From Streptomyces sp. HUAS 15-9 (GTDB lineage: Bacteria; Actinomycetota; Actinomycetes; Streptomycetales; Streptomycetaceae), in contig NZ_CP106798.1 of NCBI RefSeq assembly GCF_025642155.1, positions 1,178,001 through 1,242,000 on the forward strand: a DNA stretch of 64,000 bases, given 5' to 3'. Position 1 is the first letter of the stretch. Every line of letters starts with the position of its first letter. The notes under the pieces were generated by a model. That model saw only the letters and a list, made by a program, of their open reading frames with translations, was not told the DNA's origin and made no database searches. Both the position numbers and the translations under genes were made by a program. Positions 2,982 to 29,840 of the stretch are shown here, piece after piece.

Positions 2982-3072
2982 GAAAAAGGCGCCGCGGGAT
3001 CCGCAGCGCCATCGACGCCTCCATGACAGCATCAACGGGGTCACTGGCTCAAGTGAGCTCCGCATCACTGAA

Positions 3073-3171: not shown

Positions 3172-3213
3172 TGTCGTCGGTGATCATCGAAGGGACGAGG
3201 AGGCCGGCGCACC

Positions 3214-3693: not shown

Positions 3694-3713
3694 CGCTTGG
3701 CATCCTGGACGCC

Positions 3714-4415: not shown

Positions 4416-4652
4416 CGGACGGCGTGGCGCAGGTCCGTGAACGGGGGCGTCGCCCGGTCGGCGCAGTCCGAGCAGGAACTGTTCTTCGGATGTGTCACGG
4501 CCCCCTCGGCCAGCAGCCGCATCAGTCTTGCGACCCCCGGGTGGCCCGCGGCGGCGTACGGCGGTCGTGGCACGACGAGCGCGGGGCGGTGCCGGTTTCT
4601 ACGGTGATCGCAGGAATCCACGACGCGGTGGACCGCTCCGGGCGGAGGCCCC

Positions 4653-6074: not shown

Positions 6075-6110
6075 CCGTGGCGTCTCCTGGGCAGAGCCGG
6101 ATCCCCGCCC

Positions 6111-6857: not shown

Positions 6858-6915
6858 CAGGCCAGGTTACCGGCCGTGGTCGGACCTCCCGTACCCGGCC
6901 GATACCCTTGACCTC

Positions 6916-7314
6916 ATGAGTTCGCAGCAGACCGGCCAGACGATGAAGCCCGCCACGGCGGCGAAGAAGCTGGGTGTGTACCTCCCCGCCACCCCCGCCG
7001 AGTTCCAGGAGGGTGTCGTCTCGCGCGCCGAGCTGAACGAGCTCCAGGCCGATCCGCCCGAGTGGCTGCGCGAGCTGCGCGCCAACGGCCCCCACCCCCG
7101 CCCCGTGGTGGCGGCGAAGCTCGGGGTGTCCATCTCGGGTCTGGCGCGTGCCGGGGTCACCGAGGCCCTCACCACCGAGCAGATCGAGGCGCTGAAGCGG
7201 GAACGGCCCGAGTGGCTGGAGAAGGAGCGCGCCACCCAGGCCGAGGTGCGCAAGGAGTCGGTGCGCGTCAAGAACCTGAAGCGGGACAAGGAGCAGGGCG
7301 CCGAGCGGGACTGA
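6916..7314 (+). CDS. DUF5997 family protein
   Basis: 132 residues, matching the small conserved actinobacterial family DUF5997. It opens with TMKPATAAKKLGVYLPATP and has a central segment RPVVAAKLGVSISGLARAG that resembles a helix-turn-helix, followed by a charged, Lys/Arg-rich C-terminal helix. Function is unknown; the HTH-like core and basic tail suggest nucleic-acid contact. ATG at 6916 lies ~10 nt after a GATACC -10-like box with no clear ribosome site, so translation is probably leaderless. It is divergent from the HTH-less LysR-like gene, suggesting a shared promoter. Confidence 0.85.
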   Translation: MSSQQTGQTMKPATAAKKLGVYLPATPAEFQEGVVSRAELNELQADPPEWLRELRANGPHPRPVVAAKLGVSISGLARAGVTEALTTEQIEALKRERPEWLEKERATQAEVRKESVRVKNLKRDKEQGAERD

Positions 7315-9786: not shown

Positions 9787-9844
9787 GGAAGGGGTCCCCC
9801 TGGTTCGGGATGTCTCGGATCAGGCGTAGGAGGTGCGGCTCGGC

Positions 9845-15000: not shown

Positions 15001-15573
15001 GCTGACCGGACGGGGGTTGGGGACCTCCGGCGTGGGGGGCTCGTCGCCCGGCTCGCCCGGCTCGCCCGGGTCCACCGGCCCCGCGGTCCAGCGCCGTACC
15101 TCGTCGACGAGTTCCTTCAACGCGGGCGGGGCCGACTTGGGCAGGGAGATCGCGGTGATCTCTTCCTCACGGTCGATCCGGACGTTCACGACGGGCAGCA
15201 GTTTCCGTTCCCCGCCCGCCTGTTCACCGAAGACGAAGAGCAACTGGTCGCCGGTCCGCAGGGAGTTCGCCGTGCCCTCGACGAACAGCTGCGAGCGGCG
15301 GTCGAGGTCGTCGGGGGTGATCAGGGAGGGACGGCGGCGCCGCACCTTCAGCTCGTTCCAGTCCCAGCGGGCGGTGAGGTCGCGGCCGGTCTCGAAGGTC
15401 AGGGACTGCTCGTCGGCGGAGGCGGGCACGCTGTGGCTGCGCGCGCCGCGCGGGATCAGCACCGGCATGGCCTCGGCGCGCGGATCGCGTTCGAGGGTGT
15501 AGGCGAGATGAGTGCCGGCCGCCACACCGGGTCGCGGGCGGTGGCCGACGAGCCGGCCGAGGAGCACCAGCAT
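12058..15573 (-). CDS. eCIS baseplate assembly protein (baseplate J-like) with C-terminal LysM; N-terminally truncated
   Basis: 1171 residues from ATG 15573. The region near residues 800-960 has baseplate-J features (TVTFGDGVHGARLPSG; later a TNPRPATGG loop and SPADYEDFARS). The last ~50 residues form a LysM domain (TLSAVCARYGIPLAQL, LCLNPDI). Homologues I know begin with about 110-130 more residues, ending in a phrase like FYQERIANE...LRTATERRS before the segment LVGHRPRPGVAAG. Here that segment starts only 8 residues after the Met, no upstream frame encodes the missing part, and no ribosome site is seen. The 5' end therefore appears deleted and the protein is probably non-functional in a baseplate. 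Confidence 0.78.
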   Translation of the reverse strand: MLVLLGRLVGHRPRPGVAAGTHLAYTLERDPRAEAMPVLIPRGARSHSVPASADEQSLTFETGRDLTARWDWNELKVRRRRPSLITPDDLDRRSQLFVEGTANSLRTGDQLLFVFGEQAGGERKLLPVVNVRIDREEEITAISLPKSAPPALKELVDEVRRWTAGPVDPGEPGEPGDEPPTPEVPNPRPVSRLIEDFDDQVLAPLRADLDGIKTPGGLATRLADPVARLGEAQVLAEPYEDVAAWFEQLEAVLAELAERAGELAPAQLADTAASDALSGAVVGTDAQKGTARDPHHAALQTLSRILPALRSTAPAPRAGGRPHRPGTDTARLLTALDPGLGSLYPAWRTAAAPGTAQLLRELLVMRVTAAPFGATAPLKPVQDDRGRVIRTADWPLTGAVLASMRVVYDTAGKVPVRAEFQYVEGSSSDQRAENLPVTQQLTFPLGPGQVDLSTRAAQDRELSWLNRRPAVAEEPGVTARLHSGLPERTLFVSRPEEDGTVHVGIHNGTPQEFTLRPGAPVQVTHGEYEVSLRYTMGSTEPNVEVVIASKPEPVNFRVLQLDSVHDGITVGSWVAVQRPAKGATVPGDAKLAFVTTQVAAARTAAYSDYGITGRGTELTLADPWLDEFDVLLSHIRDTTVHAAGEPLRPADEPLGEDVHGNEIELAELYDGLRPGRTLVVSGERADIPGATGVTATEVVTLAAADPAVDPRLPGDHVHTRLTLTADLVHRYRRASVRILGNVVEATHGESREEAIGSGDSDRVNQTFALWQSPLTWLAADNPPPAFGRGYPHLASLGATPVLEVRVDGVLWHEADSLAGRGPTERVYITGTASDGRTTVTFGDGVHGARLPSGHENVRARYRFGTGRAADVPADRITQPLTRPLGVTAVTNPRPATGGADADGPGLTRRTVPLAVSALDRLVSPADYEDFARSRAGIGRAAARELFDGRRRVLHVTVAGTDDVPIADDSDLLRALRGALTEYGDPNLPVRVDVRELVLLLVAAKVKVAPDHSWEIVEPRLRQALLRRLGYEGRELGQPARLSELLATAHSVPGVDHVDVDVLTGVPASAGPEELTALLTGPGTPGPSVPAHQATYEERTHTVRDEHGETLSAVCARYGIPLAQLLCLNPDITDTRPLAKGRTVFVFRGIRPAQLALLSARAADTLILTEVK
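13174..13230. repeat. Second palindromic repeat, read in frame within baseplate gene
   Basis: A 57-bp segment with the streptomycete dispersed-repeat signature (GCCGAGCGAAGCGAGATGGG, then GGTACCCGCGGCCGAAGGC and TGGGGGAGG) sits inside the baseplate gene. It is exactly 19 codons long, so the frame is kept and the protein gains a Pro/Gly-rich stretch (around PPPAFGRGYPHLASLGATP) in the middle of conserved sequence. Confidence 0.6.
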
Positions 15574-15946
15574 TGATGCGCGCGGAGTTGACGGAACAAG
15601 GTGCCTTCCGGCCACCCCCGGAGAAGGTTTTGTGAAGGTCAATTCCCGGTATTCACACGCCACGCCCCCGCGCCCTCGACAGCCGGTGCACAGCTTCTGC
15701 ACAGCGGCCGTCCGCGCGGGGAGGCGGTCGGATCCCGGCTCCTGCGGGAACCCCCAAGGACGCCGCGCGGCGGTGGCGCGCGGGCCTGCACACCATCTCC
15801 AGGCCTTCTCCAGTCGTACACAATCCACGGTGGCCGGTTCCACCAAGGTCACCTCCACGGACCGTCGTCTCCACCGGCCCGGGGCGTTGTCAGTGGGCTC
15901 CTCTACAGTTCCCGTCACTTGATCACTGCGGTGCGGGGAGGCACGT
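15574..15946. other. 373-bp gap between headless eCIS operon and DUF4132 operon
   Basis: No gene was recognised on either strand. The minus-strand frame stays open but its translation is not protein-like, and no remnant of the missing baseplate N-terminus or of sheath/tube genes was found in any frame. It must hold the promoter of the plus-strand DUF4132-MoxR operon, whose first gene has a GGGGAGG ribosome site at 15935-15941. The deletion junction that removed the rest of the eCIS locus should be near 15573. Confidence 0.55.
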
Positions 15947-16801
15947 ATGGGGTGGGTTCCGGCGGGCGGCTACGAGGTCGCCCTCGACGGCGGAAGGGTG
16001 GTGTGCCGCAACGCCGCCGGACGGCGGCTGAAGTCCGTTCCGGCCAAGCTTGCTGACGATCCGGCGGTGACGGGGCTTCGGCAGCTCGCCGAGTGGCTGG
16101 AGCGGCACGACCGCCAGTGTCTGGCCGATGTCGAGCGGTGGATGGTGCGCTCGCTCCCGGTGCCGCGCGCCGTCCTCGCCGGGGTCTGGCCGGATCCCGC
16201 CTGGCAGTCCGCGCTGCGCGACGTCGTCGTGACGGGCGCCGACGGAGAGGTCGCCGGGTTCCTGAGGGACGCCGACCCCGAGCGCGGACTCGGTCTGGTC
16301 GACCTCGACGGCGACACCGTGCGCATCACCCCCGACCTCGTCCGCATCCCGCACCCCGTGCTCCTCGACGACCTGGAGGAGCTGCGGGAGTTCGCCGTCG
16401 AACTCGGCGTCGAGCAGCGTGCCCAGCAGCTCTTCCGCGAGGTGTGGCACCGCCCGGCCGCGCTCGACGCCGAGGGCACTCAGGTCGAGGAGTACGCGGG
16501 CGGGGCCTTCAAGGAGCTGCGGTTCCTGCACGGCAGGGCGGCGCAGCTGGGCTACCGCGTGCGCGGGGGACACGCCGTCTGCTCCGTGCTGGAGGACGGC
16601 TGCGCCGCCGAGGCCCGCGTGTGGATCGGCGACTACGACGGCTACGAGGAGACCGAGACCGGTCCCCTCATGTGGACGGACTCCGCGGGCCGGGCGTTGA
16701 AGCTCGGTCAGGTCGGGCCGGTCGCCTGGTCGGAGGGCATGCGCATGGCGGCGGCGCTGTACGCGGGGCGGGACATCGAGGACGAGGAGCGGGCGGCATG
16801 A
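15947..16801 (+). CDS. DUF4132-like protein, first gene of MoxR/vWA operon
   Basis: 284 residues. The N-terminus (MGWVPAGGYEVALDGGRVVCR) and the segment RRLKSVPAKLADDPAVTGLRQ followed by a long charged helix resemble the start of DUF4132 domains, which occur in large bacterial proteins of unknown function. Here the domain stands alone. No signal peptide or membrane helix is seen, so it is cytosolic. The ATG has a strong GGGGAGG site. It overlaps the next gene by ATGA, so both are made together, and it heads a five- or six-gene operon with MoxR, DUF5682-vWA and SWIM proteins. Confidence 0.78.
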   Translation: MGWVPAGGYEVALDGGRVVCRNAAGRRLKSVPAKLADDPAVTGLRQLAEWLERHDRQCLADVERWMVRSLPVPRAVLAGVWPDPAWQSALRDVVVTGADGEVAGFLRDADPERGLGLVDLDGDTVRITPDLVRIPHPVLLDDLEELREFAVELGVEQRAQQLFREVWHRPAALDAEGTQVEEYAGGAFKELRFLHGRAAQLGYRVRGGHAVCSVLEDGCAAEARVWIGDYDGYEETETGPLMWTDSAGRALKLGQVGPVAWSEGMRMAAALYAGRDIEDEERAA

Positions 16802-19800
16802 CGACCACGACGACATACGACGGGACCACCGTGGCCGCGCTGCTCGACGCCGGCGCCGTCCTGCCGCCGGGCAGCACCGCCCGGGAGGACGCGGACGTCC
16901 TCACCGTGCGCACCTACACCCACCCGGCCCTGGCGGAGCGGAGTGTGGTCCGGCTGGTGCCCGGCACCCTCGGCGAGGCCGAGGACCTGGCCCTGGAATT
17001 CCTCGGACTGGCCCGGGAACCCAAGACCCCCGAGGTCGGCCAGGTGCGCCGGGAGACCCTGGGCTTTCCCGCCTGGGCGCTGGTCAACGACCCGGCCAAC
17101 GGGCACCACGCGCTGGCCCTGGTCAAGGACGTCGAGCGGCTCGCGCGGCAGGCCAAGTCCCGTCCGGGCAACGCCAAGGACGGCTTCGAGGAGCTCGGCA
17201 CCCGGCTCGGCCGCACCGTGCCGCACTTCCTGCCCACCTTCTACGAGCAGGCGGCCCGGGTCTTCCTCCAGCACGAGAACACCACGTACGCCGCCGCCTT
17301 CTTCGGCAAGGCGCGCGAGGCCGAGCGGGTGCACGCCCTGGCCGTGGACGAGGAGCGGCAGCGTGCCGTGTTCCTGGAGTTCGCGTTCGCGGGCGCGCTG
17401 ACGGTCAAGGCGCTCAAGGAGTATGTGAAGGACCTCGCCCGCCGTCTCGACCCCGCGACGGCATGGGAGCAGTTCCGGCAGCTGACGGTGGAGCGCTGCG
17501 CGGCGGGCATGCCGCCGTACGCCTCGCTGCCGCAGGACGCCCGGGGCCTGATCAAGGCGGCCGGTCTGGACCGGGTCACCGAGGAGTGCGCACTCGTCGC
17601 CGACCTGATCGCCTCGCCCGCCGCCGTCCGGGCGCCCGCCTCCTTCTGGACCGCCTACCGCGCCGTCCTGCCGGTCCTCGCCGAACACCGGCCGGCCGTG
17701 AGGGCCCGGCTGCTGGAGATCATGCCGACCGGGCTGGGCCGCGAGGTCGCGGACGACGAGTTCTGGCTGACCCTGCTCGCGGAGTGCGGGGCCGAGCGGC
17801 TGCTGACGGACGGGGACGAGGTCGACGCCGCGGAGTGGCTGAGCCGTTGGGCACTGCACCGCAAGCACGGCGGGGCGGTCTCCAGGCGTTCCCCGGCCAC
17901 CCTCGCGCTGGTCGCACGGATGGCGCCCCGGCTGCGGGCCGACGGCCGGGCGGTCGACCTCTTCACCGGCCGCTGGCGCGACGGTGCCGAGCTGGACCTG
18001 CTGGACCTGTGCGCGGCGGAGGGCGTCCCGCTCACCCTTCCCGACGTCGGCGTGGACGTGCATCTGGGTCTCGACGCCTGGCTGCGCGACTCCCTGGACG
18101 GGCGGCGCGACCTGGTCGCCACCGCGGCGCATCCACGGCTGCGCGCCCTGCTGTTCCAGGCGGTGGGCACCCTGGGCGACCACCGTTCGGCCGCCGACCT
18201 GCTGAAGGGCGCCGAGCACCCCGTGCTCCGCGACGTGCTGCGCGAGTGGCTGGAGGTCTCGGCCAAGGAGTTCGTCGGCGCGGTGGGCCTGCCCGGCGCC
18301 CGTACGGCACTGGAGCGGCTGCGCCCGTTCCGCGGTGTGGCCGCCGAGGTCGGCCCGCTCGCCGTCGCCGCGGTCGCGGAGCACCGGGTCGCGCCGCTGC
18401 TCGGCCGCACCCTGCGCGCGGGCATCCTGGACGAGCTGGGCTGGCCCGCTCTGGAGGAGGCCCTGCGGCTGCTCGACGGCAAGCCCAAGAACGGCGAGGA
18501 CAACACGCTGACCGTCACCGAGGCCTGGCCCGCGCTGATCCTGGCGCGCCCGTACAAGGCGGTCGTCGTCGGCCCGGACGGCATCCTGCTCGAACACGAC
18601 CTGCGTCTGCCCGCGGACCTGGACCGCTGGCAGCGCCCCCGCTTCCGCTACACAGACGGCGAACTGCTGGTGATGTGGCGGCAGGGCAGCAAGCAGTCCG
18701 CGTACTGGTCCGCGCGGCCGACCGACGTGTTCACCCTCGGCGGCGAGCAGATCCCCACCTGGTGGTCCGGCAACGACACCGGCACGCCGTCGATCCCGCT
18801 GCCCGGCGGCGGCCGCGCCACCGGCGGCCGGACACTGCACGCCGGTGACACCGTCCTGCCGCCCACCCGGTCCGTGATCGGCGACGGCACGACGTACTGG
18901 CGCCAGGGCCGACAGGGCCGGCAGACGGTGTGGCTCGAGTACGACCCCGGCACGGGCACGCACGGACGTGCCTCACTCCCCGCCTTCCTGCGGGCCGGTA
19001 TCCGCGAGGACGCGTCCCTGCAGCTCGACGGCTGCGAGGTCCTGCCCCTGCAACCCGGCCTGGAGCACAGCCCGTTCGGCACCGACGGCACGGTCCTCGG
19101 CCGCTGGGTGCGCAAGGAGGGGAAGGGAACCGAGGCACGCACGGTCGCCGGCACCCCGGACGGCCGGACCGTCACGCTGTCCGGGGAGCGGGGCTGGGCG
19201 CACGGTGTTCCGCTGGGCGCGCTGCGGCTGCCCGGCGGGGCAGAGCCGGTCGTCGCCCGCGTCAACATGCGGGTCTCCCTGTTCGCGGCCGACGACACCT
19301 CCTCCGCCGGAGAGCTCGGCCGTGTGACGCCGCACGAGCGGGGTGGGGAGTTCGCCGCGGGCACCCGGTTCGTGCCCCCCGTCGCCTTCTGGCACGCCCT
19401 GCGCCCCCGCGACGAGAAGGGGTCGGCGGTGCTGCGCGAACTCACCGACGAACGGGCGGCCGAGGTGCTGCGGGTCACCGCCACGGCCCTGGCCGAACGG
19501 CAGGAGCGGATCGCCCGGGCGGGCGGCTCCGGCGCAACGGCGGACGAAGCGACTGCGGTTGGACAGAACCTCCACGGACAGTCGGCCGGACAGGCCGCCG
19601 ACGCCAAGCCGGCCGTGCCGACCGCGGACCAGGTCGCCCTGCGCGCCGTACGCGACGCCCTGCCGGAACTCACCGACCAGCGGCTCCTCATGGGCGTTGC
19701 CGCCCTGGTCCGCTCGGCACTGCGCATCACCGAGTCCGCCGCCGCCTTCGTGACCCCGCCCCAGGAGCGGCCGCTCCAGCCCGCCAACCGGACCCACGGC

Positions 19801-21837
19801 ATGTTCGCGGACTACAAGCCCCGGCACGGCGAGGACCGGACGCTGCACGACGCCGCCACGGGCATCGCCGAGCTGAACGGCTGGTGGGGCGGCGAACGCT
19901 GGAGTGTGCTCCAGCAGATCCGCGCGGTGAACCACGTGCTCTCCGGCAGGCCCGCCGACGGCAAGCCGCTGCCCGGACAGCGACTCGCCGTCCTCACCGA
20001 CGGCTGGAGCAGCGACGAGCACACCGTCCCCGGCATCGGCATGGTGTGGCCGTCCGTGCTGAGCACACTGCGCCCGCTCGCCTACCGGGCCGCCTCGCCC
20101 GCTCTGGCCGACGACCAACGCGAGCCGCTGCTCCTGCTGTTCGAGGCGATCGCCGAGGGGCCGCTGGCGACCCCCGCGGGCACGCTCCGAGAGATCGTGC
20201 TCAGCGAACCGCACGACAAGCAGCAGCGCGCCGGTCAGGTGCTGCGCCGTGACGGCCGCACCGTCGTGCTCCTGGGCTGCCAGAGCATCGACGGCCAACG
20301 GGAACGCGTCAACTGGCTGGCCCTGGACCACGATCCGACCGGCGCGTTCGGCGCGGTCGCCCACTTCACGCTGGAGACCGAGACCATGCACACCTCGGCG
20401 ATCACCGCGGAGCTGCTCGCCGCCGTCACCCGGCTGATCCGGGACGAGGGCCCGGCCCCGTGGCGACCCGAGGCACCCGAGGCGCTCGCCGCGGCGACGG
20501 CCGGCGGGCTGGGCCCGGTCCAGGCCACCGTGCTGCTCGCCGGGCAGCCGCACAAGCCCGGCGCCGAGGCCCTGGCCACCATGGGACTCAAGCCGCGGCA
20601 GAGGGACTTCGGCAACGGCATGCTGGGCTCGGTGGACCGGCGGGACCGGGCGGCGCTGATCGGCGCCCTGCTGCCCGAGGACCCCGCCGACCTTTGGACG
20701 GCCGGACCGGACACGGCGGCCGCGGGACGGGTGTGGACCGAGCGGCTCGGCTCGTTCGTCCGGCTGCCCGAGGAGGTCGCCGCCGGCCTCTTTGGACTGT
20801 CCGTCGGCTCCGCCGAGGCGCTGCTCAACCCCGGGCGCACTCCGTGGCTCAGCCGCACCACGGTCCAACGCCCCGACAAGGACGGCAACCTGGTTGCGGA
20901 GGACCCCGCGGCGCTCCCCGGGCGGTACGACCTCACTCGTGCCGTCGACGCCCTGGCCGAGCTCGCCTACACCCTGCCGTACGGGCATCCCCTGCGCGCC
21001 GCCCTGCCGGACGGCCTGGCCGCCCTGCGCCGTCGCGTCGCCGACCCGGAACTGCTTGTCGACCTCGACATCGAGTGGACCGAGAAGGGCGGGCCGACCG
21101 CCGTCGAACTCCGCAAGGCGTACGGCCTGCCCGCCACCGCAGGCGCCGACGCGTACGGTTTCACCCGGCTCGGCGAGGCACTCGTGCTGCGTCCCTGGTA
21201 CGGCGACACCGAGACGGTCCTGGTCCGCCCCGCCGGGCTCACCGGCCCGGACGACGCGGTCCTCGGGCTCGTCGAGGGCCTGGTGGCCCCGGCGCGCCGG
21301 GGCGGTGTGCGGGCGCTGCGGACCATCCTCGGCGACGACCTCGCCCGCGCCCTCGCGGCGGGCACGGACACCGAGGGGCCCATGGGCCACGCCCAGGACG
21401 CGAGCGCGAGCGTGCCCGCTCTCGTCGCCGAGGTCGCCGAGGCCCACGGCCTGGGCGAGGACGCGGCGGCGCTGTACCTCCAGCTGCTGGCGCTGCCCGA
21501 TCCGACGGACCGCAACTGCGCCCGCTGGACCGGCTGGAAGCCCGCCCGGATGAAGAAGGCCCGCGCCGAACTGGCCGCGACCGACCTGGTCGTCGAGGCC
21601 AAGCGGCCGCGCGCCGGACGCACCCTGTTCCTGCCCTGCGGCTGGTACGACCTCAAGGCCCCGGCCACGCCGGTGGAGACCTGGAAGGAGGGCCTCTACC
21701 CGGTCACCGGCCGCACTGTGCCGCTCCTTGCGGTGCCCGAGCTGTTCGCCCGCGCCTGGGAACGCGTCCGCGCGGGAGACGCTCCGGCGTACGAGGAACT
21801 CACCACCCGGACCGGCCGGAAGGGGCGCCGCCGGTGA
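16798..21837 (+). CDS. Very large protein of unknown function in MoxR/vWA operon
   Basis: 1679 residues from an ATG that overlaps the upstream stop (ATGA). I recognise no catalytic motif. The protein is mostly alpha-helical and Leu/Ala/Arg-rich, with no signal peptide or membrane helices. Tryptophan-rich segments appear near the middle (TDGELLVMWRQGSKQSAYW, GIAELNGWWGGERWSVLQQ). The C-terminal ~100 residues contain a basic segment (GWKPARMKKARAELA) that might be a winged-helix or nucleic-acid-binding end. Proteins of this size in MoxR-vWA loci may be scaffolds or substrates remodelled by the ATPase; that is inference from neighbourhood only. Confidence 0.75.
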   Translation: MTTTTTYDGTTVAALLDAGAVLPPGSTAREDADVLTVRTYTHPALAERSVVRLVPGTLGEAEDLALEFLGLAREPKTPEVGQVRRETLGFPAWALVNDPANGHHALALVKDVERLARQAKSRPGNAKDGFEELGTRLGRTVPHFLPTFYEQAARVFLQHENTTYAAAFFGKAREAERVHALAVDEERQRAVFLEFAFAGALTVKALKEYVKDLARRLDPATAWEQFRQLTVERCAAGMPPYASLPQDARGLIKAAGLDRVTEECALVADLIASPAAVRAPASFWTAYRAVLPVLAEHRPAVRARLLEIMPTGLGREVADDEFWLTLLAECGAERLLTDGDEVDAAEWLSRWALHRKHGGAVSRRSPATLALVARMAPRLRADGRAVDLFTGRWRDGAELDLLDLCAAEGVPLTLPDVGVDVHLGLDAWLRDSLDGRRDLVATAAHPRLRALLFQAVGTLGDHRSAADLLKGAEHPVLRDVLREWLEVSAKEFVGAVGLPGARTALERLRPFRGVAAEVGPLAVAAVAEHRVAPLLGRTLRAGILDELGWPALEEALRLLDGKPKNGEDNTLTVTEAWPALILARPYKAVVVGPDGILLEHDLRLPADLDRWQRPRFRYTDGELLVMWRQGSKQSAYWSARPTDVFTLGGEQIPTWWSGNDTGTPSIPLPGGGRATGGRTLHAGDTVLPPTRSVIGDGTTYWRQGRQGRQTVWLEYDPGTGTHGRASLPAFLRAGIREDASLQLDGCEVLPLQPGLEHSPFGTDGTVLGRWVRKEGKGTEARTVAGTPDGRTVTLSGERGWAHGVPLGALRLPGGAEPVVARVNMRVSLFAADDTSSAGELGRVTPHERGGEFAAGTRFVPPVAFWHALRPRDEKGSAVLRELTDERAAEVLRVTATALAERQERIARAGGSGATADEATAVGQNLHGQSAGQAADAKPAVPTADQVALRAVRDALPELTDQRLLMGVAALVRSALRITESAAAFVTPPQERPLQPANRTHGMFADYKPRHGEDRTLHDAATGIAELNGWWGGERWSVLQQIRAVNHVLSGRPADGKPLPGQRLAVLTDGWSSDEHTVPGIGMVWPSVLSTLRPLAYRAASPALADDQREPLLLLFEAIAEGPLATPAGTLREIVLSEPHDKQQRAGQVLRRDGRTVVLLGCQSIDGQRERVNWLALDHDPTGAFGAVAHFTLETETMHTSAITAELLAAVTRLIRDEGPAPWRPEAPEALAAATAGGLGPVQATVLLAGQPHKPGAEALATMGLKPRQRDFGNGMLGSVDRRDRAALIGALLPEDPADLWTAGPDTAAAGRVWTERLGSFVRLPEEVAAGLFGLSVGSAEALLNPGRTPWLSRTTVQRPDKDGNLVAEDPAALPGRYDLTRAVDALAELAYTLPYGHPLRAALPDGLAALRRRVADPELLVDLDIEWTEKGGPTAVELRKAYGLPATAGADAYGFTRLGEALVLRPWYGDTETVLVRPAGLTGPDDAVLGLVEGLVAPARRGGVRALRTILGDDLARALAAGTDTEGPMGHAQDASASVPALVAEVAEAHGLGEDAAALYLQLLALPDPTDRNCARWTGWKPARMKKARAELAATDLVVEAKRPRAGRTLFLPCGWYDLKAPATPVETWKEGLYPVTGRTVPLLAVPELFARAWERVRAGDAPAYEELTTRTGRKGRRR

Positions 21838-21945
21838 CCGCGCCCCTTCACCCGCCGATGGCCGCGCCGCTTCCCCCGCCGACGACCGCGCCGCCTCGCC
21901 TGCCGATGGCCGCGTCTCTGCCCCTGCCGACGACCACCACCCGTA
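21834..21945 (+). repeat. ~24-bp tandem repeat between large gene and moxR
   Basis: Four to five degenerate 24-bp units (consensus start GCCGAYGRCCGCGCC) fill most of the 130 bp between the stop of the large gene and the ATG of the MoxR gene. In the MoxR reading frame they are open and would encode an octapeptide repeat of the form SPADGRAA. The usual MoxR start at 21968 with its GAAGGA site lies downstream, so the repeat is probably untranslated or a rarely used extension. Confidence 0.6.
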
Positions 21946-21967
21946 CCACCCCGAAGGACCACCGCCC

Positions 21968-23137
21968 ATGACCACCGCCCTCGCTCCCGACGCGACCCGT
22001 CAGATCGTCCCGCCCGAGGACCGCCACGCCGTCGAACTGGCCTTCCTCGCGGCGTACGACGACGGGCCGCGCCCGCCCGCCTGGCATCTCACCCCGCGTG
22101 CCGTCGTCACGTTCGTCATGGGCAGCGGCGGGCAGGCGCTGAAGCTTCCGGACGGCGCCGAGGTGCCCGCCGGGGTGCCGCGCCGACTCGTGGTGGAGGG
22201 CAAGTTCGTCGGCGACCGGGCACTGGTCGAGCGGTGTGTCGTCACCCTCGCCGGTGAGCGCGGTCTGCTGCTCGTCGGCGAGCCCGGCACCGCCAAGTCG
22301 ATGCTCTCCGAGCTGCTGTCCGCCGCCGTGTGCGGCACCAGCGGTCTTGTGGTGCAGGGTACGGCGGGCACGACCGAGGACCAGCTCAAGTACGGCTGGA
22401 ACTACGCCCTGTTGCTCGCCAAGGGCCCCAGTCGGGAAGCCCTTGTGCCGTCCCCCGTCCTCACCGCCATGACCCGGGGCGGCATCGCCCGGGTCGAGGA
22501 GGTCACCCGCTGTCTGCCCGAAGTGCAGGACTCCCTGGTGTCGTTGCTCTCCGAGCGGCGCATCGCGGTCCCCGAACTGGCGGGCACGGACGACGCCCTG
22601 GCGCATGCCGCGCCCGGCTTCAATCTCATCGCCACCGCCAACCTGCGGGACAAGGGCGTGTCGGAGATGTCCGCCGCGCTCAAGCGCCGGTTCAACTTCG
22701 AGACCGTGGGCCCCATCCCGGACCTCGACGCCGAGACCGCGCTGGTGCGCAGCCAGGCCAGGGCGTCGGTCGAGCGGGCCGGGGCGCCGTTCCAGGTCGA
22801 CGACGCCGTGCTGGAGGCCCTCGTGACCGCCTTCCGTGACCTGCGGGAGGGCCGGTCGACGGAGGGCTGGGAAGTGGAGCGGCCCTCCACGGTGATGAGC
22901 ACGGCGGAGGCCGTCTCCGTCGCGGGCGCGCTGGGGCTGGCCGCGGCCTACTTCCCCGGCGACCGGGACGTGCTCGGGCTGCTGCCGGGGCATCTGCTCG
23001 GCGTCGTACGCAAGGACGACCCGGCCGACTCGGCCCGGCTGCGCGGCTATTGGGACGGTCCGGTACGGCGCCGCGCCGAGCAGGGTTCCGCCACCTGGCG
23101 AACCCTGTGGGACCTGCGCACGGTCCTGGGGAGCTGA
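21968..23137 (+). CDS. MoxR-like AAA+ ATPase
   Basis: 389 residues. Walker A is GEPGTAKS at residues 104-111. The Walker B region is GGIARVEEVTRCLPEVQDSL, with the acidic pair. Sensor 1 is LIATANLRDKG and the arginine-finger helix is SAALKRRFNFE, then a helical lid. This is the MoxR class that works with vWA (CoxE-type) partners as a chaperone or metal-insertion machine. An ~80-residue N-terminal extension precedes the ATPase core. ATG 21968 has a GAAGGA site. The DUF5682-vWA gene starts 5 bp after its stop, so the ATPase and its likely vWA partner are co-expressed. Confidence 0.92.
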   Translation: MTTALAPDATRQIVPPEDRHAVELAFLAAYDDGPRPPAWHLTPRAVVTFVMGSGGQALKLPDGAEVPAGVPRRLVVEGKFVGDRALVERCVVTLAGERGLLLVGEPGTAKSMLSELLSAAVCGTSGLVVQGTAGTTEDQLKYGWNYALLLAKGPSREALVPSPVLTAMTRGGIARVEEVTRCLPEVQDSLVSLLSERRIAVPELAGTDDALAHAAPGFNLIATANLRDKGVSEMSAALKRRFNFETVGPIPDLDAETALVRSQARASVERAGAPFQVDDAVLEALVTAFRDLREGRSTEGWEVERPSTVMSTAEAVSVAGALGLAAAYFPGDRDVLGLLPGHLLGVVRKDDPADSARLRGYWDGPVRRRAEQGSATWRTLWDLRTVLGS

Positions 23138-23142
23138 CGGCC

Positions 23143-24480
23143 GTGCCCCTCTCCACCGCCTCCCCCGTCTCCCCCGACGAGGCCGTCGCGGCCCTCACCG
23201 GCCCGGGGGCGCCCTACCTCATCGGCGTGCGGCACCACGCGCCCTCGCTGGCCGCAGCGGTGCCCGCGCTCCTCGACGCGGCCGAGCCCGACGTGCTGCT
23301 CGTCGAGCTCCCCGCCGAGGTGCAGGAGTGGCTGCCCTGGCTCGCCCATGAGGAGACCAGGGCCCCGGTCGCCCTCGCGGCCGCTCCGGTGGGCGGGGGC
23401 GGTGGACCGGCGTTCTTTCCCTTCGCCGACTTCTCGCCCGAACTCGCGGCGGTGCGCTGGGCCGCGCGGCGGGGCGTGCCGGTCGTCGCCTGTGACCTGC
23501 CGCTGGCCGACCGGGCGTGGGGGGAGGAACGCCCGGAGCGGGCACAGGCTCCCGGTGGCCCCCGCCTGACCACGGCCCTGCGCTCGCGTCTCACCGGTCG
23601 CCCCGGCGACGACCTGTGGGACCGGCTCGTGGAGGCCACGGCTCCGGGCTCGGCATCGGAGGCACTGCGCCGGGCCGCGCTGCTGACGGGGTGGGCGCTG
23701 CGGGAGGACGCGGCCGCGGCGGGGGGTGTGCCGGAGCTGGACCTGCGACGCGAGAGCTGGATGCGCTCCTGCCTGGCGGCCGCCACCACGAACGGCGAGC
23801 GCGCCGCGGTGCTCGTGGGCGCGTTCCACGCCCCGGCGTTGCTGTCCCCGGCAGGATCCGGCGGGCCCGAGTCGGCCTCGCCCGCCGTGGAGTCCGGATC
23901 CCTCGCCCCCGACGACCGCCCCGTCTGGACGACCTCGCTCATCCCCTACACCTACGCGCTCCTGGACGAGCGTTCCGGCTATCCGGCCGGTATCCGCGAT
24001 CCGGAGTGGCAGCACCTGGTGCTCGGCGCGGCGGGTGATCCGGACGCGCTGGAGGAGGCGCTGACCCGGGCGGCCGTACGGGTGTGTGCGGAACTCCGCG
24101 CTCTTGGCCACCCGTCGGGCCCCGCCGACGCGCGCGAGATCACCCGGCTGGCCGGAGACCTCGCCCGGCTGCGCGGACTGCCCGCGGCCGGCCGGGGCGA
24201 GCTGGTCGAGGCGGTGCAGACGGTGCTCGCGCAGGGTGAGCCGTACGGCCGGGGACGGGCCGTCGCACGGGCGATGGAGCGGGTGCTGGTCGGGACGCGC
24301 GGCGGCCGCCCCGCCCCGGAGCGCCCCGCAGCGGTCTCGCCCCCGCCGTCGAGGCCGAGTTGGCGGCACTGGGACTGCCCGGACCGGCGGACGGCGGCCC
24401 CGGTACGGCCCGGGACCTGCGTCTGGACCCGCTCCGTTCCGACCTCGACCGCCGGCGTGAACTCCTGCTCCGCCGGCTGA
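23143..24480 (+). CDS. DUF5682 protein, N-terminal part (reads out of frame after ~24300)
   Basis: From GTG 23143, 5 bp after the MoxR stop, the frame encodes a DUF5682 N-terminus (APYLIGVRHHAPSLAAAVPA, then PDVLLVELPAEVQEWLPWL). The fold resembles TraB/PrgY-like proteins with conserved His and Glu. The sequence looks native up to about ...ERVLVGTRGGR near 24300. After that this frame becomes Pro/Ser/Arg-rich and stops at 24480, while the family sequence continues in the next frame (RSGLAPAVEAELAALGLPG). A single-base indel in the GC-rich run CGCGGCGGCCGCCCCGCC explains this. It may be a true mutation or an assembly error; if corrected the gene joins the next entry. Confidence 0.7.
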   Translation: MPLSTASPVSPDEAVAALTGPGAPYLIGVRHHAPSLAAAVPALLDAAEPDVLLVELPAEVQEWLPWLAHEETRAPVALAAAPVGGGGGPAFFPFADFSPELAAVRWAARRGVPVVACDLPLADRAWGEERPERAQAPGGPRLTTALRSRLTGRPGDDLWDRLVEATAPGSASEALRRAALLTGWALREDAAAAGGVPELDLRRESWMRSCLAAATTNGERAAVLVGAFHAPALLSPAGSGGPESASPAVESGSLAPDDRPVWTTSLIPYTYALLDERSGYPAGIRDPEWQHLVLGAAGDPDALEEALTRAAVRVCAELRALGHPSGPADAREITRLAGDLARLRGLPAAGRGELVEAVQTVLAQGEPYGRGRAVARAMERVLVGTRGGRPAPERPAAVSPPPSRPSWRHWDCPDRRTAAPVRPGTCVWTRSVPTSTAGVNSCSAG

Positions 24481-26696
24481 CGGTGTGCGGGGTGCCGTAC
24501 GCCGAGCCCAAGGAGGTCGTCGGCGCGGGCGGGGCCGAGGCGCTCACCTCGCGCTGGGAGGTGCGCTGGACCCCCGCCAGCGCGGCCATGCTGACCACGG
24601 CCGGGGTCCGCGGTGTCACCCCGGCCCAGGCCGCCGAGGGCGTGCTGCGGGAGCGGTGGCGGGCGGAGCACGACGAGGGCGGGCCGACCGCCGCGCAGGC
24701 CCTGGACGGTCTGGAGCGGGCGGCGGAGTGCGGTCTGCCGGGACTGACGGACGAGCGGCTGGCGGACACGGCCGACGTGCTGCCGCACTCCGCCACCCTG
24801 CCCGAACTGCTCTCCGGGCTTGCCCTGTTGGACCGGTTGCGGGCCGGGCACATCGCCGGACTCGAGGCCGACGAGGACCGTTCGGCCCGTGCGGCCGAAG
24901 TGGCCGAGCTGCTCACGGCCGCCGCGGTGCGCCAGGTGGACGGCCTCGCCGGTTCCGAGGACCCCGCCGACGCGCACGCCCTGCTCGAACTCGCCCACCG
25001 CGCCGACCTCCTCGGCGGCATACGGCTCACCGACGCCCTCACCCGACTGGCGGCCGACGGTTCCCCGCTGATGCGCGGCGCCGCGGGGGCCGTACGCGTG
25101 CTCCTCGGACACGAGGACCCCCGGGTCCTCGGCGACCGCGTCGCCTCCTGGGTGGACTCGGCCACCGACGCCGGCTCCCGGGCAGCGCTCACCGCGCGGC
25201 TCACGGGACTGCTGACCGCGGCGGGCCGGCTCCTGGAGTCCGCGGCCCCCGCGCTGGAGCCCCTGCTCAACCGGGTCTCGGAGCTGCTCGACCGGGAGTT
25301 CCTCGACCGACTGCCCGCGCTCCGGGGAGGCTTCGAGACGCTCAGCCCGGCCGCCCGCGACCGCCTCCTCTCGGCCGTCGAGGAACGGCTCGGCACGAGT
25401 CACCTGGCCGACACCTCCGGCATCGACCCCGATGCCCTCGCCACCTGGACCCGCGCGGACCTCGCGGCACGTGAGGCCCTGGCCGGACTCGGGCTCCTGC
25501 CCGCACCGCGGGACCACGAACAGCCGGAGCCCGCCGCCGAACCGGCCGCCACCCACGAGGCGCCGGCCCAGGTCCCCGGCGAGACACACCGGCTCGCCCC
25601 CGCCGACCGCTGGCGGCTGCTCCTCGGCCGCCGTACCGGCCAACTGCCCCAGTCCGCATCGGCGTTGGCCACGTCACTGGACGAGCTGTACGGCAGCGGG
25701 CGCGGCGAGGGCAGCAGGGGGAATCTCGGCGGCCGGGGCCGGGGCGGTGGCCGGGAGGCACCGTACCCCGGGGTGCGCGAGTGGTCCGAGGAGCTGGCTG
25801 CCCTGTTCGGGCCGGGCATCCGCGAGGAGGTACTGGCCGCGGCCGCCGCGTCGGGCCGCCAGGACGTGCTCACCGAGCTGGATCCGGACAGCGTCCGGCC
25901 CTCCGTCGACCTGCTGCGCAGCATGCTCCGGCACGCGGGCGGACTGCCCGAGGCCCGGCTGGCCGCGCTGCGTCCGCTCGTACGACGCCTGGTCGAGGCG
26001 CTGACCCGGGAGCTGGCGACCCGGCTGCGCCCCGCGCTGCACGGCACGGCCCTGCCACGGCCCAGCCGACGGCCGGGCGGCGGCCTCGACCTGCCCCGTA
26101 CGCTGCGGGCCAACCTGGCGACCGCCCGGCGCGGCCCGGACGGCACGGTCCAGGTCGTCCCCGAGCGTCCCGTGTTCCGTACCCGCGCCCGGCGTGCCTC
26201 CGACTGGCGGCTCGTCCTGGTCACCGACGTGTCCGGGTCAATGGAGGCGTCCACGGTCTGGGCAGCCCTCACGGCCTCGGTACTGGCCGGGGTGCCGACC
26301 CTGTCCACGCACTTCCTGGCCTTCTCCACGAAGGTCATCGACCTCACCGACCACGTCGAGGACCCCCTGTCGCTGCTGCTGGAGGTCAGCGTGGGCGGCG
26401 GCACCCACATCGCGGCGGGGCTCCGGCGCGCGCGCGAACTGGTGACGGTGCCGTCCCGCACCCTCGTCGTGGTCGTCAGCGACTTCGAGGAGGGCTATCC
26501 GCTCGGCGGGCTGCTCGCCGAGGTCCGCGCCCTCGTCGGCGCCGGCTGCCATGTCCTCGGCTGCGCGAGCCTCGACGACTCCGGCCGTCCCCGGTACTCC
26601 ACCGGTGTCGCGGGGCAGGTCGTCGCCGCGGGAATGCCCGTCGCCGCCCTCAGCCCGCTCGAACTCGCCCGCTGGGTAGGGGAGAAGATCGCATGA
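24360..26696 (+). CDS. DUF5682 C-terminal part fused in frame to a CoxE-like vWA domain protein
   Basis: Family sequence starts near 24310 (the first start-like codon is TTG 24360). To about 25480 it is the C-terminal half of DUF5682 (LDPLRSDLDRRRELLLRRL, LDREFLDRLPALRGGFETL). A Glu/Pro/Ala linker follows, then a vWA protein from about 25590 (LAPADRWRLLLGRR, FPGVREW-like YPGVREWSEELAALFG). The MIDAS motif is VTDVSGSMEAS (DxSxS) at ~26220, with GGGTHIAAGL and VVVSDFEEGYPLGG later. I see no in-frame ATG or GTG at the junction, so one polypeptide is likely; after frameshift correction DUF5682-vWA would be about 1184 residues. vWA proteins of this class pair with MoxR. It overlaps the SWIM gene by ATGA. 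Confidence 0.78.
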   Translation: MAALGLPGPADGGPGTARDLRLDPLRSDLDRRRELLLRRLTVCGVPYAEPKEVVGAGGAEALTSRWEVRWTPASAAMLTTAGVRGVTPAQAAEGVLRERWRAEHDEGGPTAAQALDGLERAAECGLPGLTDERLADTADVLPHSATLPELLSGLALLDRLRAGHIAGLEADEDRSARAAEVAELLTAAAVRQVDGLAGSEDPADAHALLELAHRADLLGGIRLTDALTRLAADGSPLMRGAAGAVRVLLGHEDPRVLGDRVASWVDSATDAGSRAALTARLTGLLTAAGRLLESAAPALEPLLNRVSELLDREFLDRLPALRGGFETLSPAARDRLLSAVEERLGTSHLADTSGIDPDALATWTRADLAAREALAGLGLLPAPRDHEQPEPAAEPAATHEAPAQVPGETHRLAPADRWRLLLGRRTGQLPQSASALATSLDELYGSGRGEGSRGNLGGRGRGGGREAPYPGVREWSEELAALFGPGIREEVLAAAAASGRQDVLTELDPDSVRPSVDLLRSMLRHAGGLPEARLAALRPLVRRLVEALTRELATRLRPALHGTALPRPSRRPGGGLDLPRTLRANLATARRGPDGTVQVVPERPVFRTRARRASDWRLVLVTDVSGSMEASTVWAALTASVLAGVPTLSTHFLAFSTKVIDLTDHVEDPLSLLLEVSVGGGTHIAAGLRRARELVTVPSRTLVVVVSDFEEGYPLGGLLAEVRALVGAGCHVLGCASLDDSGRPRYSTGVAGQVVAAGMPVAALSPLELARWVGEKIA

Positions 26697-28492
26697 ACCA
26701 GGACCTTCCTCCGGTCGCCCCGTCCGTGACCGCCGAACTGGTCGCGGCGCTGTCACCACGGCTGCGCAAGCGGCTGGACGCGGGCATCGCGAAGCTGGCG
26801 GACCGGCCGGTGGTGCGCGACGGCGACACCGTGCGCATCGCCGTCGACGACGACACCGACCTCGAACTGCACGCCCCCGGCGGCGCCGTGACCGGCGTCG
26901 ACGGCATCCGCTGCGGCTGTCTGCTGGCACCGGACTGCCTGCACCGGGCGGCCGCGGCGTCGGCGGCCCCGATCGCCGACACCGAACCGGATCGACCGGC
27001 CGGACCGGAGGCGGAATCCAAACCGGCCGAGGCGGCAAAGGCCCCGTCGGAGGCCCAGACCCCGTCCACGGCGGAGCCCGACGCGGCCACCGCCGACCAG
27101 CGCGCCGCCGCGCAGGCGCTCTACGGCGCGGCGGCCGCGGTCCTCGACGCAGGCACCGACGGCGCTGGGGCGGTGCTCCAGGCCGAGTTGCTGCGCGCGG
27201 CGCACACCGCGCGGCTGGCGGGACTCCCCAGGGCGGCCGCCGCGGCGGTCTCCGTGGTCACCGCGGTGCGCGCGGCCCGCTCGGCGGACCCCGCGTACCG
27301 CCTCGCCGACCTCGTCTCCACCCTGCGCGAGGTCCTGGCCGTCGCCCACCGCGTCCCGTATGCCACCGGCCCCGAACTGACCGCGCTGCGCGGCACCGTA
27401 CGCCAGCCGTACACCCCGGACGGCTCGCTGCGGCTGTACGGCCTGTTCTCCGAGCCCGTGCTCACGGCGAGTGGCTATGCGGGCGCGGTCACCTGGACCG
27501 CCGACGCCGAGGGCCGTCTCCACACGGTCTCCGACGTGGCCCCGGGCGGCCCCGGCCGGGCCGTGGGGGCGGCCGACCGGACCGTGCGCATCGGTGACAC
27601 GGCCCTGACCCACCGTGAGTTGTCGCGCGCGGGCCTCGCGGTGTCCGGTGCCACCGTCTCGCCGACGGGTCGGCTGGGTGCGGGGGCGGGGGTACGGGCG
27701 GTTCGGGCCTCCGGAGCCGACTGGCAGGGCGAACCGCTCGGCCGGCTCTGGGCCGTGCCGGTCGCCGATCAGGTCGCGCGTGCCCTGGCCGACGGCCACG
27801 ACCTGCTGTTCCTGGAGGTCACACTCACCGGGACGGTCCGTGAGGCGGCGGGCGACTGTCTGCTGGCGGACTGCGACGGGCTGACGCTCCGTCTGGTCGC
27901 CGCCCACGACGACCCCGCCCTTCCCTACCGCGACAACCTCCGTCTGCTGGGCGCCGCCCGGGGCAGCCGGCTCCGCGTGATCGCCCGGCTCAGCCCTGCC
28001 CCGCACCCCCGGGCCCTGCTGCTGGCCGCCGACCACCCGAAGGAGCCGGGCACCCGTCTCGACCTGGGCCTGGACCGGCTCCGGCACGCGGACCTGCCCG
28101 CCGCGACGGCACCGGCCGCCGGGACCGTCGTACCCACACCCGACGAAGCACCGCTGCACCTCCTGCGCCGCCGGGTGCAGCAGGCCGCGTCCGGCGGCCG
28201 GCAGGTGCTCGCGTTTCCCGGGAGCGGCGCCGCGGACGCCGCACGTCTGCGCGGGCACGGCCTGGCGACCGCGGGTGATCTGCTGGACGAACTGCACTGC
28301 GCCGCGCCGGCCCGTGCGCGTGACCCCTTCGGCCGGCTCCTCCCGGCCGACACGGACCGCTTCGCCCGCGCCTGGCTCGCCGCCGCCGTCTACACCGACG
28401 AAGTGGACCGGGCGCTGTGTGCCGCGGCGTGGAACACGGGCCACCGCTCCCCCGCGTCGACGGCACCGCCCGTCATTCGAGGCATCCCGTGA
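26693..28492 (+). CDS. SWIM zinc-finger protein, last gene of MoxR/vWA operon
   Basis: 599 residues. A SWIM-type zinc finger is seen as RCGCLLAPDCLHRAA, with ligands C74, C76, C82 and H84, preceded by the usual strands (DTDLELHAPGGAVTGVDG). An Ala/Glu/Pro/Thr-rich linker (~95-135) leads to a helical region and a mainly beta C-terminal half. SWIM fingers bind DNA or proteins; here it likely gives the complex a recognition arm. ATG 26693 overlaps the vWA stop (ATGA). Its 3' end overlaps the convergent pyrophosphatase-like gene by 20 bp. Confidence 0.85.
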   Translation: MNQDLPPVAPSVTAELVAALSPRLRKRLDAGIAKLADRPVVRDGDTVRIAVDDDTDLELHAPGGAVTGVDGIRCGCLLAPDCLHRAAAASAAPIADTEPDRPAGPEAESKPAEAAKAPSEAQTPSTAEPDAATADQRAAAQALYGAAAAVLDAGTDGAGAVLQAELLRAAHTARLAGLPRAAAAAVSVVTAVRAARSADPAYRLADLVSTLREVLAVAHRVPYATGPELTALRGTVRQPYTPDGSLRLYGLFSEPVLTASGYAGAVTWTADAEGRLHTVSDVAPGGPGRAVGAADRTVRIGDTALTHRELSRAGLAVSGATVSPTGRLGAGAGVRAVRASGADWQGEPLGRLWAVPVADQVARALADGHDLLFLEVTLTGTVREAAGDCLLADCDGLTLRLVAAHDDPALPYRDNLRLLGAARGSRLRVIARLSPAPHPRALLLAADHPKEPGTRLDLGLDRLRHADLPAATAPAAGTVVPTPDEAPLHLLRRRVQQAASGGRQVLAFPGSGAADAARLRGHGLATAGDLLDELHCAAPARARDPFGRLLPADTDRFARAWLAAAVYTDEVDRALCAAAWNTGHRSPASTAPPVIRGIP

Positions 28493-28952
28493 GCCGCTCG
28501 TAGGCGTGATGAGCGTCGCTGATCAGGTGCTCGGCCTCGGCGCGGGTACCGCAGGCCGTGACCTTGCCGACGGCCTGGTGCTGCAGGCGTGCGAGTACGG
28601 CGGCCCAGGCGTCGCCCTCGGCGTGCCAGCGTGGCAGGTCGGGGGTGTCGACGAGGTCGATGAAGGAGGGGTCCTCGGCCACGCACAGCAGTACCGGGGC
28701 GGCAGTTTCGGACTCGGCGGCGATGCGGTGCAGGACGCCCAGCGGCCAAGCGGGCACCGTGGCACCGGCCAGTGCCGGTTCGGGCATCACCACCAGGGCG
28801 TCCAGGGGCAGCCCATCGGCGTCGAGGGTGTCCGGGACACGTCCGTGTCCGACCGGCCAGCCCTGTGAGGTGAGGCGGCCGGAGGCGCCGTCGTCGGACT
28901 TGCGGATGGTGGACGAGGCGGTCGCGTCTATGTCGACAGTGATCCGGGGCAT
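28473..28952 (-). CDS. Inorganic pyrophosphatase-like protein with lost active site
   Basis: 159 residues that align with family I soluble pyrophosphatase through the core GRVPDTLDADGLPLDALVVM, the EPALAGATVPAWPLGV strand and VLLCVAEDPSF. Key residues are changed: the catalytic DGDPxD motif is DGLPLD (residues 46-51, middle Asp replaced by Leu), the N-terminal EIPxGSxxKYE motif is missing, and the DEKVLCVP acidic residue is lost. It is therefore probably not a pyrophosphatase; a binding or regulatory role is possible. ATG 28952 has a GAGGAGG site 9 nt upstream. It is divergent from a normal pyrophosphatase gene 390 bp away. Confidence 0.75.
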   Translation of the reverse strand: MPRITVDIDATASSTIRKSDDGASGRLTSQGWPVGHGRVPDTLDADGLPLDALVVMPEPALAGATVPAWPLGVLHRIAAESETAAPVLLCVAEDPSFIDLVDTPDLPRWHAEGDAWAAVLARLQHQAVGKVTACGTRAEAEHLISDAHHAYERLTGCLE

Positions 28953-29342
28953 GGCCCTGACCTCCTCAGATGTGAGCGCGGTCAGCGGGGTGGAGGCCAT
29001 CGGCACCGCAGGCGTGCGGTTGTCGGCGAGCCCCATCGCCGGATACCAGCAGTCTCCTGCCGCACGGCCGGGGCGGCAACCAAAGGGTGGCTGGACCGCC
29101 CCTTGTCCCGTCCGGTCCCCGACCGCCGTCGGCCAGGTGGCCCGGAAGGGAGCGAGGCGCACACTGGAAGGGCACGGCCTGGAAGGACGTGCCGGTGATG
29201 GGGCTCACCGCAACCGCGGGCGCGCGTCCGCTGACGGTCCCTGGTCCAGCCGCGCTGACCAGGAGCAGCCATGCCCGCACCCAGTGCGCCCCCGTCTGCC
29301 CGGCTCTCACGCCCCGCTCGGACACCAGGCAGGGAGGACGAC
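28953..29342. other. 390-bp divergent promoter region between the two pyrophosphatase-family genes
   Basis: No gene was recognised. The region must carry promoters for both the degenerate and the active pyrophosphatase genes. An ATG at 29271 is in frame with ppa and would add 24 residues, but the Ser/Pro/Arg-rich extension is not family-like and the GTG at 29343 has the better ribosome site. No clear inverted repeat or riboswitch was noticed. Confidence 0.5.
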
Positions 29343-29840
29343 GTGGAGTTCACAGTGACCGTGGAGATCCCCCAGGGTTCCCGCAACAAGTACGAGATGG
29401 ACCACACGCTGCACCGCATCCGGCTGGACCGGCTGCTGTTCACCTCCACCAAGTACCCGGCCGACTACGGCTACATCGACGGCACCCTGGGCCGGGACGG
29501 CGACCCGCTCGACGCGCTCGTACTGACCGGCGAGCCCACCTTCCCGGGCTGCACCGTCGAATGCCGGGCGGTGGGCATGTTCTGCATGAAGGACGAACAC
29601 GGCCCCGACGAGAAGGTGCTGTGCGTCCCCGCCCACGACCCGCGCTACGCGAACGTGCAGGACATCGGGGACATCTCCGAGTTCGACCGGCTGGAGATCA
29701 CCCACTTCTTCGAGGTCTACAAGGACCTGGAGCCCGGCAAGTCGGTCGAGGGCTCCCACTGGGAGGGCCGGGACGCGGCGTACACGGAGATCGAGGCGTC
29801 CCGACGGCGCGCGGCCACGGCCACCGGCGAGCGGGCGTGA
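29343..29840 (+). CDS. ppa: Inorganic pyrophosphatase (family I)
   Basis: 165 residues, the usual length. The protein hydrolyses pyrophosphate to two phosphates with Mg2+ and pulls biosynthetic reactions forward. All active-site motifs are present: VEIPQGSRNKYE (9-18), YPADYGYIDGTLG, DGDPLDALV (52-60) with the three metal-binding Asp residues, DEKVLCVP (89-96) and HFFEVYKDLE. GTG 29343 was chosen because GGGAGG lies 7 nt upstream and the protein then begins at the family's first strand. It converges with the MFS gene that ends at 29911. Confidence 0.93.
   Translation: MEFTVTVEIPQGSRNKYEMDHTLHRIRLDRLLFTSTKYPADYGYIDGTLGRDGDPLDALVLTGEPTFPGCTVECRAVGMFCMKDEHGPDEKVLCVPAHDPRYANVQDIGDISEFDRLEITHFFEVYKDLEPGKSVEGSHWEGRDAAYTEIEASRRRAATATGERA

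Follow-up and report, generated by a model that had tools for sequence, protein, structure and literature searches.

A YehL-type MoxR/vWA operon of Streptomyces with a probable place in the DNA-damage response

What does a MoxR-type ATPase do in Streptomyces when it is encoded among a DUF4132 protein, a giant protein, a DUF5682-vWA protein and a SWIM-type zinc-finger protein? Such an operon occupies positions 15947-28492 of the stretch analysed here (the window, 64,000 nucleotides of Streptomyces sp. HUAS 15-9, contig NZ_CP106798.1, positions 1,178,001 to 1,242,000 of the forward strand), and an initial annotation had regarded it as a candidate undescribed ATPase-chaperone system. In our analysis the gene set proves to be a known one, here in a variant form, and its functional placement is new: the operon is probably a YehL-type MoxR/vWA remodelling system in the Streptomyces DNA-damage response. 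The sequence itself shows the gene set, its conservation, a promoter element with its link to repair genes, and conserved TIKI-type residues. The genes follow each other on one strand in this order:

15947-16801, + strand: DUF4132 protein of 284 amino acids (aa; PF13569, 7.1e-29), present in 14 of 14 relatives
16798-21837, + strand: giant protein of 1679 aa without a Pfam family, with a propeller-like middle and a winged-helix-like C-terminus predicted by the model
21968-23137, + strand: YehL-like MoxR-type AAA+ ATPase of 389 aa (AAA_5, 2.2e-38)
23143-24480, + strand: first half of DUF5682 (PF18934, 4.6e-117), with a TIKI/TraB-like N-terminal domain at about 23143-24130
24360-26696, + strand: second half of DUF5682 (PF18934, 2.7e-88) and VWA_CoxE domain (about 26013-26678; PF05762, 6e-66) with the DVSGSM motif of a metal-ion-dependent adhesion site (MIDAS)
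26693-28492, + strand: SWIM-type zinc-finger protein of 599 aa with the motif CxC-x5-CxH, from an alignment with E. coli YehQ

Gene calls, order and strand confirm the earlier description of one MoxR-vWA operon whose further members are unstudied, as does the spacing of 5 bp between MoxR and DUF5682. Three ATGA overlaps had been reported, and two are found (4 bp each, at 16798-16801 and 26693-26696), the giant-MoxR junction being a 130-bp gap when the MoxR start is taken at 21968. The SWIM motif of the last gene, a protein without a Pfam match, was recognised by eye, and its four ligands are invariant in all 11 rows of the alignment including YehQ.

Is the gene set new, as the initial annotation had suggested? 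E. coli K-12 carries yehI (DUF4132), yehK, yehL (MoxR), yehM (DUF5682), yehP (vWA) and yehQ (SWIM) in the order of the operon, and YehL names one of the seven MoxR subfamilies, which were delimited by sequence similarity and local gene structure (PMC3893208). The window MoxR is 46% identical to YehL over 368 aa and has the same partners in the same order, YehL being the nearest of the subfamilies compared. Its P-loop reads GEPGTAKS and a pair of glutamates stands in the Walker B place (VEEVTR); the form GxPGTAK[ST] and the glutamate pair are common to the window MoxR, the MoxR of a second, core locus of the same genome and YehL in an alignment of 18 sequences. No published function for the YehL-type gene set was found among the papers listed from an open-licence library, which omits most subscription papers, and DUF5682 is mentioned in none of that library's papers.

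The arrangement is strongly conserved. DUF4132, giant, MoxR, DUF5682-vWA and SWIM keep their order and strand in each of the 14 loci where a relative of the giant is encoded, which is not expected by chance; the 4-bp DUF4132/giant and vWA/SWIM overlaps are likewise kept in 14 of 14, and a 4-bp giant/MoxR overlap occurs in six of them. The full gene set persists at about 50% divergence (L086, L089, L090, L091). Within the genus the operon is accessory: the N-terminal 700 residues of the giant have some match in 91 of 199 genomes, and full-length matches to these residues of at least 62% identity occur in 41 (own genome included), with six more being split. DUF5682 has a copy in 146 of 150 same-genus genomes; among 149 genomes of the phylum it was found in 10, six of them outside the genus. 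Occurrence in all streptomycetes with a housekeeping role had been named beforehand as an outcome that would refute the initial proposal. This holds in half: DUF5682 is nearly universal in the genus, and the core MoxR-DUF5682-vWA locus carries, as the window operon does, a DNA-damage-type promoter element.

Partial loci were also observed. L088 (6890-17804) has DUF4132, giant, DUF5682-vWA and SWIM, MoxR not being found there by tblastn or by P-loop pattern, and pattern searches finding neither the final TIKI motif nor the MIDAS motif; its genome (G135) holds a second giant and a second DUF5682-vWA elsewhere. In L079, L080 and L087 a DUF4132 and giant-type pair stands without MoxR, DUF5682 and SWIM in the retrieved stretch, and the two can thus form a pair of their own. 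A third DUF4132 match with an internal stop lies near a contig end (G000:C1:7981-8379, L097).

What controls the operon? The candidate is the following element:

15887-15909, + strand: RecA-NDp/PafBC-type promoter element with the consensus TTGTCRGTG-N8-TANNNT, lying 60 bp upstream of where DUF4132 starts

In aligned upstream regions, a block at a fixed distance before DUF4132 is conserved, which we take to be RecA-NDp, the RecA-independent actinobacterial damage promoter and PafBC target; its consensus letters were checked by the repair genes that lie behind matching sites. The site is exact, and a scan of the window that allowed one mismatch found no other, 0.04 being expected. In the DUF4132 upstream regions of 42 distinct loci the element is exact in 28 and has one mismatch in eight (36 of 42), and the reversed pattern gave no match in 12,600 bases of these regions; the 42 include the own locus and three DUF4132-giant pairs without the rest, five duplicates (L096, L099, L100, L105, L107) having been dropped from 47. 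The name and role of RecA-NDp have been described (PMC6789036, PMC5087735), an element of this kind precedes the UV-inducible SCO6735 of S. coelicolor (PMC5087735), and PafBC has been treated in PMC5656591 and PMC11804915.

The own genome contains 37 exact element sites, and none for the reversed control. Thirty sites were retrieved and seven were not; 20 of the 30 have a called gene start within 171 bp and 10 do not. Seven of these 20 genes have repair domains, namely UDG (L124), MgsA/RarA (L126), RecD2-type HHH (L129), UvrA (L131), UvrB (L132), O6-methylguanine methyltransferase (L133) and PcrA (L145), while two belong to the system itself, DUF4132 (L122) and the SWIM gene of the core locus (L146). 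The element being common to DNA-repair genes, the operon probably serves the damage response rather than phage defence. As for the regulator, the own genome has a pair of neighbouring WYL open reading frames (ORFs) no more than 3 kb from a Pup-ligase-family ORF, the place expected of pafBC, and they are presumably pafBC-like genes. The damage-promoter-type element before DUF4132 and its link to repair genes are new here, as are the likeness of DUF5682 to TIKI/TraB hydrolases and the predicted domains of the giant described below.

The core locus lies at 5.29-5.31 Mb (L005). A first scan of 30 core loci placed the element near one end in 10 (eight exact, two with one mismatch), with 25 matches elsewhere, which was taken as the result of cut or reversed stretches, and the loci were therefore rescanned with oriented upstream stretches. 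In 20 of 20 other same-genus genomes (the 22 best-scoring DUF5682 search rows minus the own genome and G028) an exact element then points away from MoxR, its direction being read relative to MoxR alone, and in 18 of the 20 a one-mismatch element stands 63-129 bp before MoxR. Moreover, drA0165-drA0166 (DUF4132) and dr2173 (WGR) of D. radiodurans rise on DdrO depletion (PMC8533742), and such a DUF4132 operon supports the damage theme.

As separate observations, four genes without a Pfam family at 1e-5 lie directly behind exact elements (C1:1361649, 1495636, 4548879 and 5251799; L123, L125, L142 and L144) and are, from their position, candidate new damage-response genes. A SUKH-4 immunity-type gene also stands behind an exact RecA-NDp element (L137, 269-1429).

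What could the partner proteins contribute? The giant has no Pfam match at 0.01, its pieces gave weak unrelated matches only (from 0.068 up), and a PDB sequence search with it returned no match. Its model, which leaves out the N-terminal 490 residues, predicts a propeller-like domain and a winged-helix-like end:

18421-19407, + strand: predicted beta-propeller-like domain of the giant, residues 542-870
21457-21630, + strand: predicted winged-helix-like segment of the giant, residues 1554-1611, helix-helix-helix-strand-strand in the model, blocks of predicted local distance difference test (pLDDT) 71-97

The winged-helix-like label was given by eye from the model, with no structural match behind it. 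The idea that the giant is the N-terminal part of YehI was rejected, hmmsearch with a profile of 144 giant sequences giving no YehI match.

The N-terminal half of DUF5682 resembles TIKI/TraB hydrolases, the fold being a predicted one. Members of that superfamily have in common a His, a Glu, a basic residue and a further His (PMC6254334). The DUF5682 N-domain carries the motifs GVRHHxP, LVELP or LIEGP, RExxM and GA[FW]HxPAL, and its His, Glu, Arg and His columns are invariant in 40 of 40 rows as well as in YehM; by pattern, the first motif is found in 49 of 49 DUF5682 sequences and the last in 48 (L088 being without it). The first Glu of the TIKI 2His/2Glu set is V or I in DUF5682. The profile TraB_PrgY_gumN reached at best 17.8 bits on DUF5682 N-domains (cut-off 26.8), in three of five, while the YbaP control scored 150.8 bits. 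The TraB family was found in one of 119 genomes of the phylum. PDB sequence searches with DUF5682-vWA and with its N-domain gave no match, and YbaP searched against PDB, to name a Tetrahymena chain, gave weak matches only. The second half of DUF5682 is predicted as helical repeats in the model of an intact relative.

Taken together, we infer for the YehL-type system PafBC control, docking, hydrolysis, a client and DNA binding. DNA damage would produce single-stranded DNA, PafBC would activate RNA polymerase at 15887-15909, and the whole operon would be made. A MoxR hexamer may then dock on the vWA domain of DUF5682-vWA, and ATP turnover may move an arm, made up of helical repeats and the hydrolase domain of TIKI/TraB type, against its client. 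The DUF4132-giant pair, which is found also without the rest, might be this client or a platform, and the SWIM protein and the winged-helix-like end of the giant might bring the complex to DNA or to a DNA-bound protein. A bolder version, which we consider very unlikely, makes the complex a damage-induced machine for removing proteins trapped on DNA: it would be kept on DNA by SWIM and the winged-helix end of the giant, MoxR-vWA would pull, the TIKI-type domain of DUF5682 would cut the trapped protein and lesions would be read by the giant-DUF4132 pair, in a bacterial functional parallel to Cdc48/p97 with SPRTN/Wss1.

Several results weigh against a damage-response hydrolase complex. On the promoter side, six of the 42 DUF4132 loci lack the element at one mismatch (five of the six have a two-mismatch version within 600 bp), and of the 20 genes linked to a site, 11 do not belong to the known repair genes (MFS, PhoH, SUKH-4, HAD, AraC type, a sigma factor and five without a Pfam family at 1e-5). 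When the yeh region of E. coli was scanned for LexA boxes, it yielded matches with two to three mismatches only, nine where 4.1 were expected. Outside the genus the element is found in none of six actinobacterial loci, in about 1.3 kb before MoxR, two of them having a SWIM gene upstream so that the true promoter may lie beyond; the damage-promoter link is thus established for Streptomyces only. On the side of the fold, neither YehM nor the core copy of DUF5682 matched TraB in profile searches, a viral TraB match ranks fifth by E-value for DUF5682 of the intact relative, Foldseek against PDB with the DUF5682 model lists helical repeats, and this model has a mean pLDDT of 64.

MoxR-vWA pairs also serve as cofactor-maturation chaperones, as in NorQ-NorD or CoxD-CoxE, and here MoxR-vWA would twist a client for metal insertion while the TIKI-type domain would bind the cofactor. 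ChaN, which binds haem, is a model for such a domain. The CoxE-like vWA with its MIDAS and the NorQD mechanism (PMC13036017) favour this, and molR, of molybdenum utilisation, is listed at 47.3 (PMC4245954), where the yeh region also lies (2.20 of 4.64 Mb). However, no metalloenzyme gene occurs within the operon in 14 of 14 relatives, the promoter element ties the operon to repair genes, and the D. radiodurans molybdate genes were unchanged when the DUF4132 genes changed (PMC8533742), so that we rate a cofactor role as quite unlikely.

Could the locus be a defence system? The initial annotation had proposed a mobile defence or toxin locus next to a remnant of an extracellular contractile injection system (eCIS), in view of this neighbour:

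7343-15573, - strand: phage-tail/eCIS-like cassette with an endolysin-type amidase, DUF6519, a 738-aa protein and a baseplate-wedge-like protein with weak LysM

The four genes sit between DUF5997 and DUF4132 in the window. None of them was found in 40 operon loci of relatives (tblastn at 1e-10 with no less than 40% of the query covered; the upstream stretches ranged from about 2 to 16 kb, and L107 and L042 are one record), which makes the cassette a local neighbour and not a part of the system. The lactonase-to-DUF5997 block (343-7293 in the window), or its DUF5997 end, stands directly before DUF4132, without the cassette, in 8 of 14 loci of relatives and likewise in 8 of 20, and an eCIS or mobile-locus link was rejected on these grounds. 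PADLOC models matched none of six sequences at 0.01, and nothing follows the vWA domain, the VWA_CoxE match ending at residue 773 of 778; the proposal of a defence or toxin locus is therefore not upheld.

An anti-phage or conflict system related to the MoxR-vWA ternary systems would in principle let MoxR-vWA set a threshold, the giant sense an invader and the hydrolase domain act as effector, and a damage promoter would sense phage replication. The operon is patchy in the genus, its P-loop has the form GXXXTAKS that is frequent in FtsH and beta-propeller ternary systems (PMC7159879), the bpMoxR profile matches at 4.2e-4 (19.9 bits, below the cut-off of 27), and the giant has a predicted propeller-like domain. 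Against these points, the same parts recur at about 50% divergence in the four loci named above, DUF5682 is nearly universal in the genus, the tail cassette is not conserved beside the operon, and the main text of PMC7159879 contains none of the words 'yeh', 'SWIM', 'DUF4132' and 'DUF5682'. Because of the lack of a PADLOC match, the conservation and the vWA domain with nothing after it, defence is less likely, and we consider it unlikely overall.

Does the window copy still work? DUF5682-vWA had been treated as one gene, but in this assembly it is split over two frames, profile positions 1-350 lying in the ORF 23050-24480 and positions 371-727 with the vWA domain in the ORF 24360-26696, with the change between about 24300 and 24360. 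The local copy may thus be dead or misread; in the core copy at 5.30 Mb, DUF5682 is unbroken. That the window holds a decaying locus with no present function in this strain is a real but minority possibility, compatible with the damage-response reading for the family. The frame change, set against a single frame for both halves in 14 of 14 relatives, and the tail cassette in the upstream flank point that way, but the remaining operon genes have open frames, the giant shares 93% identity with the protein of a neighbour Streptomyces strain, the promoter element is exact, and a lone frame change may be an assembly error. Directly after the operon, two pyrophosphatase-family ORFs lie on opposite strands (28473-29840), the minus-strand one being the weaker.

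The YehL branch of MoxR with DUF4132, DUF5682 and SWIM spans E. coli to Streptomyces. An element common to uvrA-, uvrB- and pcrA-type genes narrows an open-ended question to whether this is a DNA-damage machine, and DUF5682 gains a predicted hydrolase fold in which four residues invite mutation.

How does the operon compare with known systems? With NorQ-NorD and CoxD-CoxE it shares MoxR and a CoxE-like vWA, but here there is no metalloenzyme partner gene, and the hydrolase-like, giant and SWIM parts are extra. The MoxR-vWA ternary conflict systems (with VMAP, iSTAND, FtsH or a beta-propeller) likewise join MoxR-vWA to a large third component and have the P-loop form GXXXTAKS (PMC7159879), whereas the present operon has no FtsH gene, no vWA-fused propeller and no effector after the vWA; VMAP was not recognised in Pfam-type searches, whose libraries possibly hold no VMAP models. 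The E. coli yeh genes are closer, with identities to the window proteins of 46% (YehL), 35% (YehP) and 30% (YehM), but there the giant is absent, DUF4132 is carried in the 1210-aa YehI, yehK is interposed, DUF5682 and vWA are separate genes, and the promoter differs or is not known, the LexA-box scan being weak. The core Streptomyces locus differs in being divergent, with SWIM and DUF5691 one way and MoxR-DUF5682-vWA the other, in having DUF5691 in place of DUF4132 and the giant, in its separate vWA and in its near-universal DUF5682; like the window operon, it joins a MoxR, 47% identical to that of the window, with DUF5682, vWA and SWIM, and it has the promoter element on both sides.

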